Made by a program: the position numbers and the translations under genes
Assembly: GCF_013358405.1 (NCBI RefSeq)
Contig: NZ_CP054836.1
Coordinates: 3,720,001-3,784,000, forward strand
Direction: 5' to 3'
Source: Oricola thermophila
GTDB taxonomy: Bacteria; Pseudomonadota; Alphaproteobacteria; Rhizobiales; Rhizobiaceae
DNA: 64,000 bases
The notes under the pieces: generated by a model
What the model was told of the DNA's origin: nothing
What the model saw: only the letters and a program-made list of their open reading frames with translations
The model's database searches: none
Shown: one piece after another, positions 50,887 through 55,056 of the stretch
Numbering within the stretch: position 1 is the first letter of the stretch
Layout: every line of letters starts with the position of its first letter

Positions 50887-52704
50887 TTACATCCCCCCGG
50901 CGCTTTGTGGCTCGCCCGCATTCGGCATGGTGCGACCGGGTACGCCGGAAACATTCTGCCCCGAAGCGCCTCCGGCAAACCCGGACAAACGGGATTTGAA
51001 GCTTTCGGCGGCCAAGGCGCCGAAGCGGGCCGCGGCGCCCTCGATCGTCATGGCGAATGCGTCGCCCGCCCTCGATCCCGACCGCGTGATTGCCTCGGCT
51101 GCCCGGTTGCCGCCATCTGCAATGCCCTGCTCGACCTTGTCGGCAGCATCCTTCGCGGATGATGCCGTCGCGCTATAAAGATCATCGCTGGTCGTGTGCG
51201 CCAGGTCCGGCGTCGCGCGTGATCCGAAAATCTTGCTTTCGGCCCCCGCTAGGACATTCATGCCGAGATAGCCAGGCTGCACCGCCGCGCGCTCGGCAAG
51301 GCCGCCAGACGGCCCCGAATAGAGACTCGACGGCGGCGCGGCGGGAAGGCGCGGCGGCATCGCTGCAAAGGCCGTCGCCCGGTACATGGCCGGATCCTGC
51401 TTCGCCAACGCTTCGTCGCCGGGGATGACATATCCGCCAGACCGCGCAATCGCATCGCGCTCGGCCGCGCTCTTGTGGAACGTGAACGTCATGCGCTCCA
51501 TCAGCGACGCATTCTGCCAATAGGTCGAGTTCCTGATCGCCCGGTCTTTCGTAAGCGCATTCGATGCGCCCTTCATGGCGGCGACAGCGGTCGGCGCGAT
51601 CGACTTGCCGAAATCCTCCTTCAACGTTCGCCAGGCATTGCCCATTTCATCCATCGCGGATTGCGTGTCCGACTTGATGCGCTCGAGGTCGCGACTGACC
51701 GTCCCGGCCGCATCCGACATCGCCGCTTCATATTCCTTGATCGCATCCTTGTTCCGCAGGATTGCGCGCATGGCGATCAGCATTTGCTTGTCGGTGAACA
51801 GTTGCGGCAGCTTCGCAAGATCGCCGTTGACCGCCTCCTCGGAAAGCCGGATGAATGCGTCGAGAATATCCTCCCCTGCATCGCGTGCCGCTTGCAATTC
51901 CTCGCGCAGATCCACGCCGAACCGCTTCGCGAAATTGTTCGCGACCGTCTGCGATTCCATCTTCGTAAGAACATCCATGAAGGCGGTTGCCGCCTCGCCG
52001 GACGTGCCCGTTTCCCGACGAACGGTTTGCAGCATGGCCGCCAGGCGCCGAAGGCCGGCTTCGCCATCATAGCCAAGCGCGGCGAAGGCCGGGGCGAGCG
52101 ACGGCAGATAGGACGCCATGTCCTTCAGTTCGAACTTGCCCTCCTTGCCGCCCTTGGCGACGATGTCGAACGCGCGCTCCATTTCGCCGGCAGCAATGTT
52201 GAACGAGTTCGCGATAGCGTCGGCCGTCGTCGCCATGTCGAGGAAATCGGCGTCGGCGGCCTGCGCGGCGGACGCAACGGACGGCAGAAGGTCGAGCGCC
52301 TCCTGCATCGTCGCGCCAGCGGCGACCATGCCGTCGAGCGCGTCGACGACGCCCTGCACCGGCGCCTGAACATCATTGGCGATCGAGCGCACGCGCTCGA
52401 GCGCGGCCTCGGTCTCCTCGGCAGATGCGTCGGCCGTGATCCCGATACGGTTCATGCGCCGCTCGATCGAGGCGAAGGATCGCGTCGCGGCCGTCGCGCC
52501 GGCCGTGATCGCTGCCGGTGCGGCATAGGCCAGCATCGCCGTGCGGACGCGGCCCGCTGTCGCGACAATCGCGGATTGCGAGCGATTGTAGGCTTTCGCC
52601 TTGCGGTCGATCTTGTCGAACTCGCTCGACACGCGGCTGAATGCCTGCATGTTGCCAAGCCGCGACGACAGCCGCAGGATCGCCTCGATCGTGCGATTTG
52701 CCAT
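50887..52704 (-). CDS. Tail tape measure protein (TP901-type core)
   Basis: This 605-aa tape measure has the TP901 core (about 60-330: GITADASAEETEAALERVRSIAND, VVDALDGMVAAGATMQEALDLLPSVASAAQA). Its PEPtidoglycan/hydrophobic parts are short. The sequence is alanine-rich, and the C-terminal 200 residues are low-complexity with GGAAS-type repeats. Length suggests a rather short tail (about 0.15 nm per residue, so roughly 90 nm as an estimate). It follows the frameshifting chaperone as usual. Stop codon abuts the next start. Confidence 0.92.
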   Translation of the reverse strand: MANRTIEAILRLSSRLGNMQAFSRVSSEFDKIDRKAKAYNRSQSAIVATAGRVRTAMLAYAAPAAITAGATAATRSFASIERRMNRIGITADASAEETEAALERVRSIANDVQAPVQGVVDALDGMVAAGATMQEALDLLPSVASAAQAADADFLDMATTADAIANSFNIAAGEMERAFDIVAKGGKEGKFELKDMASYLPSLAPAFAALGYDGEAGLRRLAAMLQTVRRETGTSGEAATAFMDVLTKMESQTVANNFAKRFGVDLREELQAARDAGEDILDAFIRLSEEAVNGDLAKLPQLFTDKQMLIAMRAILRNKDAIKEYEAAMSDAAGTVSRDLERIKSDTQSAMDEMGNAWRTLKEDFGKSIAPTAVAAMKGASNALTKDRAIRNSTYWQNASLMERMTFTFHKSAAERDAIARSGGYVIPGDEALAKQDPAMYRATAFAAMPPRLPAAPPSSLYSGPSGGLAERAAVQPGYLGMNVLAGAESKIFGSRATPDLAHTTSDDLYSATASSAKDAADKVEQGIADGGNRAAEAITRSGSRAGDAFAMTIEGAAARFGALAAESFKSRLSGFAGGASGQNVSGVPGRTMPNAGEPQSAGGM

Positions 52705-52710
52705 GATGCG

Positions 52711-52803
52711 CTATTTCCGGTTTTCGCGTTCCCAGGCGGCGGCCATGCCGCCATATGTGACGATCTGCCCGAACGTCAGTCGGCCGACTTCGTCGAACCC
52801 TTT
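52711..52803 (-). other. Putative -1 frameshift extension of the tail chaperone
   Basis: The slippery heptamer A AAG GGT (52803-52797 on the minus strand, in the zero frame of the chaperone) fits X XXY YYZ perfectly. Slipping back one base continues for 29 codons (GFDEVGRLTFGQIVTYGG...) to TAG at 52713-52711, just before the tape measure gene. The extension has good codon use and a GpE/gp42-like sequence, so a 146-aa G-GT-type fusion is predicted beside the 124-aa product. Long-tailed phages conserve such frameshifts in tail chaperones. Confidence 0.78.
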
Positions 52804-53150
52804 TCCGTGCCGCCAGAGGAGGCGGCTTGCGGCGTCGTAGACGCGCGGGCCGTCGCGAAAAAATCACGAATGACCCCGTGAACCGAAAGCGCATCTTTCA
52901 GGTCAAGCACCTGCAGGTCGGCGGCCGTGCGCGGCGGCATGACCAGCCGCTCGGCATAGGCAGCGACGACGTCGTGATGTCGAATGACCATCGGCCGATG
53001 CGTTCCGTCGTCGCCCCCGACCGGCTGCCATTCCTCGATTTCTCCTAGATCGACGAAATCCTGCCATCGCGGTTCGCGGAAGGTCAGCGAGGAAAACGGC
53101 TCGCTGCCTTCGCCATAGGTGCGCGACAGTTCGATGGTTGTGCCCGGCAT
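52776..53150 (-). CDS. Tail assembly chaperone, Mu gp41-like (zero-frame product)
   Basis: This 124-aa protein includes ELSRTYGEGSEPFSSLTFREPRWQDFVDLGEIEEWQP (key SSLTFREPRWQDFVDLGEIEEW), the typical start of gp41-like chaperones, and an AAYAERLVMPPRTAADLQVLDLKDA helix pair. The zero frame stops at TGA 52776, but a -1 slippery site 20-27 bp earlier allows read-through into the extension. ATG 53150 overlaps the tube gene stop (TGATG). Confidence 0.82.
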   Translation of the reverse strand: MPGTTIELSRTYGEGSEPFSSLTFREPRWQDFVDLGEIEEWQPVGGDDGTHRPMVIRHHDVVAAYAERLVMPPRTAADLQVLDLKDALSVHGVIRDFFATARASTTPQAASSGGTEKGSTKSAD

Positions 53151-53521
53151 CACGCGATTTTCCGATATGCTTCGGCCATGATGCCAACGCCCGTTACCTC
53201 GCCGGTCAGCCTGTTGGCCGCAGGTTCACCGGTATAGAATGCCCGCGTGAACTGGTGAATAACCCCGGTGAATTCCTCGGTGATCGAGATATCTCGCCGC
53301 TCGTCGCCCATGAGGGCGGCGAGATCGACATTCTTGTCCGCGAATGCGATTTCGCAGCGCGGCGAGGTCGGCGTCGCGACCCGGTCGGCGCTTCCGTCCT
53401 GGTTTGTCATGCCCTCGATCGACGCCGTCGAGGGATAGACGGTGAAGGTGCCGCGCAGCGAAACATTGCGGCCGGCGGAATCGCGAAATTTCATCACGCC
53501 GCCGAAGTCTTTTCCGGCCAT
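53150..53521 (-). CDS. Tail tube protein (Mu gp40/M family)
   Basis: This 123-aa protein has the Mu-type tube pattern: an N-terminal MKFRDSAGRNVSLRGTFTV strand, CEIAFADKNVDLAALMGDERRDI and a long helix. It forms the inner tube inside the contractile sheath. It lies 41 bp after the sheath gene, the order sheath-tube-chaperone-tape being that of Mu. Confidence 0.88.
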   Translation of the reverse strand: MAGKDFGGVMKFRDSAGRNVSLRGTFTVYPSTASIEGMTNQDGSADRVATPTSPRCEIAFADKNVDLAALMGDERRDISITEEFTGVIHQFTRAFYTGEPAANRLTGEVTGVGIMAEAYRKIA

Positions 53522-53562: not shown

Positions 53563-55056
53563 TCAGGCGCTCGCGAACTGCGAATAGATGACCGCGTTTG
53601 CGGCGATCACGTCGAGCGGCTGCACCATGTCGAGCGGAGCATGGATGTCGACCCGGTTCGGGTTGTCGGCGTTTCGAGAAACCTCGATCACGTCTGCCGC
53701 CTGGCCGGCGTTCTCGAGGATGCCGCGCAAGACGAGTTCGTCATAGGCGTGCATGAATGTCGCCTTGATGTCGGTCGGCGTCGATACCGTGTCGAGGTTC
53801 GCGGGATTGTCGTCGGCAATCGCCTTCTGCCCGTGTTCATAGGTCAGACGCGAGCGGAAGTACCGCAGCGAATAGACGATCTGTCCGATCTTCTGAATAT
53901 CGCGAAACGTCGTATCCGGCACGTCATTGAAGGTCCGCGCGGTCGTGATGATCTTGTCGATCACGACGTCGCCGCCCGTGTTGACCTTCCATGTCGACAG
54001 CCCCGAACCGAGAAAGGTTTCGCGCGTCGCGTAGTCGAGCCAGCCGGCCCGGTCGCGCGGCGCCTGCAGCCCCTCGACGACAAGGCCCGTCTGGTTTCGC
54101 GATGCGTTGCCCGTTCCGCCATCGGACAGCCACGGCACGATGCGGCCCGCAATCGCCGCCGCCCATTGCCAGACCGGATTCGGAGCGTTCGACGATGCAA
54201 TGACCGGAATGACGGTCAGGTGCCGGTCGTCGAGCCCGAGGCCGTGCGTCGTCAGATTGGAGATCGTGTCGGACATCGGATAGAAAACATGCCCGTAAAT
54301 CTGGCGGTTCCAGGCCCACCGACCGGACACGTCTGACATCAGGTCGGAATAGCGCCCGACATTGGTCGCATCGGAGAACGGCGACACGATCCAGTCGAAT
54401 TCGTCGTCGCCGAGCGCCGCAAGAGCCGCCGAAAGATCCGGCGTTCCCGAACCGGACGTCGGCGCCGCGATCGAAAGCTTGCCCGAGGCGACATTCCCGC
54501 CGTCGAGCGCGGGAACGTGAATATCGATTCCGTTCATGATCGCGCCGTTATGGCGGGGCGTCAGCGTCACGACCTCGTCGGTCGCCGATGCCGTAAAGGG
54601 CAGGCTCGCGCCCGACAGGCCGTTGAAATAGCCATTGACGGCTGCCGCGATCGCGGCGGCGACATCGGAGTCCGCATCGCCGTCGGCGACGGTGAACTGC
54701 ACCGGCTCGCCAGCAATCGAAACGACACCGAGACCGGCCGACGGGACGGAATCAACCGTGATCGTGCGGCTGCCTTTCGTGCCGCTGTCCGGCACCGCCA
54801 TGATCCACAATTCTTGCGCCGGCGCGTTCTGGCGCACAAGCCGAACCATGTCGTCGAGCATGGATCCGGCACCGGCCAGGCGACGCCCCTCGGCGATCGA
54901 CGGGCAGACGGTCGGCGTGTTTGCGTCGATCACGGCGCCGGAATTGGCATGGCCGATCAGGAGCAGGCGGGACCGGCTTTCGAACTGGCCGCCGGAATTG
55001 ACCTCGAATGCGACGAGCGGCGCGACGATATTGCCGGGAATGGTGTTGAATTCCAT
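53563..55056 (-). CDS. Contractile tail sheath protein (Mu gpL family)
   Basis: This 497-aa sheath subunit has an N-terminal IVAPLVAFEVNSGGQFESRSRLLLIGHANSG region (key PLVAFEVNSGG), a central insertion domain, and the C-terminal sheath core with RGWLDYATRETFLGSGLSTWKVN and RDIQKIGQIVYSLRYFRSRLTYEHGQKAIADD (key SRLTYEHGQKAIADD). ATG 55056 has a GAGGA ribosome-binding site. It proves that the tail is contractile (myovirus-like). Confidence 0.95.
   Translation of the reverse strand: MEFNTIPGNIVAPLVAFEVNSGGQFESRSRLLLIGHANSGAVIDANTPTVCPSIAEGRRLAGAGSMLDDMVRLVRQNAPAQELWIMAVPDSGTKGSRTITVDSVPSAGLGVVSIAGEPVQFTVADGDADSDVAAAIAAAVNGYFNGLSGASLPFTASATDEVVTLTPRHNGAIMNGIDIHVPALDGGNVASGKLSIAAPTSGSGTPDLSAALAALGDDEFDWIVSPFSDATNVGRYSDLMSDVSGRWAWNRQIYGHVFYPMSDTISNLTTHGLGLDDRHLTVIPVIASSNAPNPVWQWAAAIAGRIVPWLSDGGTGNASRNQTGLVVEGLQAPRDRAGWLDYATRETFLGSGLSTWKVNTGGDVVIDKIITTARTFNDVPDTTFRDIQKIGQIVYSLRYFRSRLTYEHGQKAIADDNPANLDTVSTPTDIKATFMHAYDELVLRGILENAGQAADVIEVSRNADNPNRVDIHAPLDMVQPLDVIAANAVIYSQFASA

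Follow-up and report, generated by a model that had tools for sequence, protein, structure and literature searches.

The stretch of Oricola thermophila DNA analysed here (64,000 nucleotides of contig NZ_CP054836.1, positions 3,720,001 to 3,784,000; referred to as the window) contains two overlapping reading frames between the genes for a tail tube and a tape measure protein, the second of them in the -1 frame. The question raised by this locus is where ribosomes would pass from one frame into the other. Frameshifted tail chaperone genes are an ordinary arrangement in tailed phages and the phenomenon is well known; in the accessible text of PMC10885494, they are named as a common prediction target. 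The first-pass annotation had placed a programmed -1 shift of the chaperone gene at the heptamer A_AAG_GGT. The comparison described below supports a -1 fusion well and points to a different site.

Tail module and overlapping frames

A contractile-tail module was found on the minus strand in the order sheath, tube, chaperone, tape measure, and a protein with a DNA-circularisation domain. The tail sheath gene (53563..55053) matched phrog_165 at 1.4e-121, and the tail tube gene (53150..53521) matched phrog_185 at 4e-9 and Tail_tube at 3.8e-4, just under the cut-off. The tape measure gene (50887..52704) was recognized by PhageMin_Tail at 3.2e-22 and by phrog_34270 at 6e-103. Between tube and tape measure, the zero-frame gene of the tail assembly chaperone (52776..53150, minus strand) extended from the ATG at 53150 to the TGA at 52778-52776 and encoded 124 aa. 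Its product matched Phage_TAC_7 with an E-value of 0.012 and 16.1 bits (16.1-16.8 across searches), without reaching the 25-bit cut-off, phrog_166 (tail protein) at 5e-4, and phrog_24302 at 2.8e-15. The latter was the best PHROG of the chaperone (52779-53150) and is annotated as function unknown; position and site suggest that it is a family of frameshifted tail assembly chaperones.

Two in-frame heptamers were detected by scanning the chaperone gene. A_AAG_GGT was confirmed in the zero frame at 52803-52797, where it fits the X_XXY_YYZ pattern. From there, the -1 frame ran on for 28 codons (FDEVGRLTFGQIVTYGGMAAAWERENRK) to the TAG at 52713-52711, ahead of the tape measure ATG at 52704, as had been described, and the fusion would total 146 aa. 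The sole other heptamer, T_TTT_TTC at 52863-52857, was located 60 nt upstream and enters the same -1 frame with the same total of 146 aa; fusion length therefore cannot discriminate between the sites. Past this T run, the -1 frame comprised 48 codons and the TAG (52711..52857). It was shut by a TGA immediately upstream of the T run and held no start codon earlier than codon 40. The product lengths of 124 aa and 146 aa given in the first-pass annotation were retained; if ribosomes slip at the T run, the fusion would differ in residues 99-118, and KGFDE, proposed there as the junction, would fall inside the -1 tail. The tryptic peptide VYDAASR is predicted to be specific to a slip at the T run, and the Arg-C peptide ASTTPQAASSGGTEKGFDEVGR to a slip at A_AAG_GGT.

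The background frequency of such heptamers was determined in the 12 other genes of the module. X_XXY_YYZ occurred in frame at 4 of 4282 codon steps, with A_AAG_GG(C/G) accounting for two of the four, and in-frame T_TTT_TTN did not occur in these 12 genes. By simple arithmetic from this rate, at least one heptamer is expected by chance in about 11% of genes of 124 codons, so that A_AAG_GGT by itself is unremarkable.

The T run among relatives

Relatives were gathered via the chaperone protein, via the tape measure protein in IMG/VR, and from named phages. Chaperones from IMG/VR were chosen with profile A1, built from ten zero-frame proteins, at E-values up to 1e-4; the profile ends in Phe-Phe and is biased to that residue pair, not to its codons. 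The first IMG/VR set consisted of 80 loci, of which 52 had a chaperone match at that threshold and were counted; 10 weak matches (E 0.008-0.25) and 18 loci lacking a match at that level were left uncounted. With ten added loci (L006-L012, L014-L016), the first set came to 62. Since L001-L004 duplicate L024 and L036, they do not enter the cluster counts, and L013, a short match from the contig scan, was dropped as not being a chaperone. A second set of 103 loci gave 72 matches and 31 loci without a match; the matches were made up of 50 repeats or near-repeats, 19 new clusters, and three contigs of known exceptions. Clusters were formed at about 85% similarity, which lessens relatedness but does not model it. 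A class-wide genome search yielded two partial matches (L022 and L023), a scan queried with L057 returned L057 alone, and the -1 tail of the window by itself had no match in the phage collection. The tblastn alignment of the window protein to phage PPF1 ended at residue 98, the second Phe.

An in-frame T run was present in 59 of the 62 first-set loci, corresponding to 44 clusters, and in all 19 new clusters of the second set. Overall, T_TTT_TT(C/T) was found in 63 of 65 chaperone clusters, with T as the last base in 34 and C in 29, a run of six or seven T's in every one of the 63, and -1 tails of 40-62 residues. All 12 loci first found by the chaperone protein (L001-L004, L006-L012, and L014; the window's own phage among them) had the run. 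The three first-set loci without it formed two further clusters. In these, CTT TTT TCC (L045/L046; zero frame 2078-2434 of L045) and GAT TTT TCG (L081; 1380-1805) replaced the heptamer and the -1 tail was open; the site may be a slippery variant or may have decayed.

In several distant relatives of the tape measure (L073, L074, L062, L089, and L064), a chaperone-like ORF with a weak profile match reached the tape measure gene, and neither a -1 extension nor a T run was detected upstream of that gene. This ORF may encode a related chaperone that is made with no frameshift.

Silent positions were evaluated in the 44 first-set clusters with a T run. Phe-Phe was preceded by Asp, Gly or Ser, encoded in all 44 clusters by a codon ending in T (chance product about 10^-27 from per-locus codon usage). 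The first Phe codon was TTT in 44 of 44 against 9.8 expected (about 10^-33), and the free last base of the heptamer was T in 24 clusters and C in 20. These figures are conditional on the presence of the run, which is found in 44 of 46 clusters if the exceptions are counted. Judged by codon usage, the silent positions strongly favour the T run.

Dual coding was assessed by nucleotide entropy at zero-frame codon positions 1, 2, and 3 in 13 clusters sharing the same 85-nt overlap. Upstream of the T-run site, the values were 0.96, 0.70, and 1.36; between the two heptamers, 1.11, 1.00, and 1.16; from A_AAG_GGT to the zero-frame stop, 0.99, 1.25, and 1.00. Past that stop they were 1.04, 1.30, and 0.92, zero-frame position 2 being the wobble position of the -1 frame. 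Between the heptamers, the zero frame scored 1.27 BLOSUM units per column, the -1 frame 1.13, and the third frame 0.71, a modest contrast. The pattern fits a constraint that acts on both frames once the T run is reached. In 13 of the 44 first-set clusters (the window, 52776-52863, plus 12), exactly 85 nt separate the T run and the zero-frame stop, although protein identity is low in this stretch.

Proposed slip mechanism, rival explanations and possible stimulatory elements

A slip at A_AAG_GGT, alone or as a second site, would take advantage of a heptamer that is in frame, fits the pattern, and recurs in L036 and L204. Together with L024, the window's own phage, these are 3 of the 63 T-run clusters; the alignment of homologues proposed in the first-pass annotation as a check thus showed an open and conserved -1 frame in which this heptamer is not kept. 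The -1-frame motif GK[GS]F was common to seven clusters, and in L031, L025, and L206 the heptamer was silently changed to AAAGGCT or AAAGGAT although GKGF was kept. The zero frame of 29 of the 63 clusters stopped fewer than 60 nt after the T run begins and hence short of the position of A_AAG_GGT, and constraint on the -1 frame was already indicated upstream of that position. In the host genome, 42 tRNA matches were obtained; 30 loci and another 11 stretches were used to type them, one of the loci also containing the remaining match. The types included tRNA-Lys with anticodons UUU and CUU, tRNA-Gly with GCC, UCC, and CCC, and a single tRNA-Phe with GAA. The likely tRNAs at A_AAG_GGT, CUU for Lys and GCC for Gly, would by general pairing rules fail to pair with the third base of AAA and of GGG; Lys UUU and Gly UCC and CCC are also present. 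A_AAG_GGT was rejected as slip site on conservation; a role for it is very improbable, and the heptamer is probably incidental.

Slippage of RNA polymerase at the T's, with a base inserted into an mRNA whose ordinary translation then yields the fusion, would be served equally by six or seven T's in all 63 clusters. Polymerase slippage in bacteria is, however, associated with runs of nine A or T in the accessible text of the review PMC5009743, and in L081 the -1 tail is open though the run has five T's only. The X_XXY_YYZ register is a requirement of tRNA slippage, but protein conservation fixes the register too. We give this explanation very little credence. Separate translation of the -1 ORF by reinitiation, with no fusion formed, is the most improbable reading. 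Among codons 1-27 of the -1 frame, 21 of 63 clusters have an ATG, GTG or TTG and the other 42 have none; the sole -1 start of the window is an ATG leaving 11 residues, and the silent-site bias of the T run would be left unexplained.

From the comparative evidence, we consider it highly probable that a contractile-tailed prophage encodes here an E/E+E'-type chaperone whose 146-aa fusion arises by translational slippage at T_TTT_TTC. Most ribosomes would stay in the zero frame and produce the 124-aa chaperone. A minority would slip back one base on the heptamer at 52863-52857, where tRNA-Phe (GAA) could re-pair with UUU in both the P and the A site, and would then read the -1 frame to the TAG at 52711, joining 98 zero-frame to 48 -1-frame residues. 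If the products act like lambda gpG/gpGT and P2 gpE/gpE+E', the 124-aa form would coat the tape measure protein, and the -1 tail of the fusion would recruit tube subunits. The sequences themselves show the two frames, the site, and the conservation of these; that ribosomes slip here, how often they do so, and what each product does are inferences. The accessible part of PMC5009743 cites E. coli work in which A_AAA_AAG is more slippery than U_UUU_UUU and U_UUU_UUA, which speaks against an easy slip.

The same text describes upstream Shine-Dalgarno stimulators in dnaX and many IS elements. In the window, GGGGT at 52873..52877 (minus strand) is a tentative candidate for such an element; the best anti-SD energy ahead of this T run is -6.2 kcal/mol, at a spacing of 7-8. 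Over spacings of 4-11, the anti-SD energy of the 44 clusters lay below that of synonymous shuffles, meaning stronger pairing than expected (0 of 200 reached the observed value), and in a stricter 42-cluster set overlapping the first, 0 of 400 shuffles did so. The signal was not significant in the 19 new clusters (62 of 400 shuffles), nor was it for the window by itself (235 of 1000). An upstream Shine-Dalgarno-like stimulator of the T-run shift is therefore put forward tentatively, as one that did not replicate in the new clusters. For this group of phages, a T6 shift driven, like that of E. coli dnaX, by such an element some 7-11 nt before the run, and not by downstream RNA structure, is conceivable and somewhat doubtful. 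In the accessible portion of the literature on these phages, no account of a Shine-Dalgarno-driven T6 frameshift was found.

Downstream folding of the window gave z values from -0.86 to -3.72 over stretches of 30-70 nt, varying with the stretch chosen. For one downstream 50-nt stretch in the 44 clusters, the mean z was -0.74, with 9 of 44 below -2; four control offsets gave mean values of -0.04 to -0.40, with 1 to 4 of 44 below -2. A consensus fold of the window's seven-member subfamily showed no gain over column shuffles (z 0.33, 0.08, and 0.66). With no conserved fold in that subfamily, a downstream stimulatory RNA structure is not claimed.

Likeness to P2, lambda and named phages

Gene E of P2, for which the sequence record annotates a -1 shift, is placed before the tape measure gene like the gene of the window. 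Its heptamer is T_TTT_TTG (GGT TTT TTG), and the window likewise has six T's after a T-ending codon. The P2 heptamer ends in G, whereas that of the window ends in C; the -1 tail has 57 aa in P2 and 48 in the window; and the zero-frame stop follows the T run after 25 nt in P2 and after 85 nt in the window. The tail profile matched P2 E' with an hhalign probability of 90 (E 1.7e-6 for a single pair), and the zero-frame profile matched P2 E weakly (probability 16). Nine of the ten A1 members matched Phage_TAC_7 (PF10109), the Pfam family of E, at E-values up to 1 (best 3.9e-4). Five of the ten tails of A2 matched Phage_P2_GpE (PF06528), the family of E', at E-values up to 1 (best 1.1e-5), the tail of the window not being among them; searched alone against Pfam, the latter gave no match. 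On architecture, site, and tail, the gene was filed as what is most likely a P2-type E/E+E' chaperone.

The slippery heptamer of lambda is GGGAAAG, unlike that of the window. Lambda G/G-T works in the way proposed for the window, a low-level -1 shift yielding a short and an extended chaperone; the accessible text of PMC5009743 describes the roles of G and GT and gives a higher efficiency in P2. That of PMC3931495 lists T6G as the P2 site and T7G or T7C in related phages, and that of PMC3711429 reports measurements of 6% and 7% for two genes belonging to an HK97-like chaperone cluster.

The closest named phages were Rhizobium phages vB_RleM_PPF1 and RR1-A, with the same sheath, tube, chaperone, and tape measure. 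Each has T_TTT_TTT, followed by a -1 tail of 48 aa in PPF1 and 50 aa in RR1-A, and unlike the window neither has A_AAG_GGT; counted from the first base of the T run, their zero frames stop after 43 and 40 nt. In PPF1, RR1-A, and yong2 alike, T_TTT_TTT is in frame and the -1 tail is open (41-50 aa), although their records contain the zero-frame chaperone gene only (L014 2501-2928, L015 4403-4723, and L016 4439-4825). RR1-A carries an additional gene between chaperone and tape measure (L015 4836-5390), labelled tail completion or Neck1 protein, and a gap of about 625 nt was observed at its place in L048, L049, and L051. SfV has T_TTT_TTC and phiKM1 has G_GGT_TTT; an X_XXY_YYZ heptamer was not found in Mu gene 41. 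In the mostly open-access literature searched on PPF1, RR1-A, and frameshifting, the site was described in no title or abstract.

A perfect-looking heptamer within an overlap of two frames can thus be incidental, and conservation at silent sites separates two candidate sites where fusion length fails. For a phage group whose inspected records (PPF1, RR1-A, and yong2) give the zero-frame gene alone, the likely fusion site and its predicted product can now be named.
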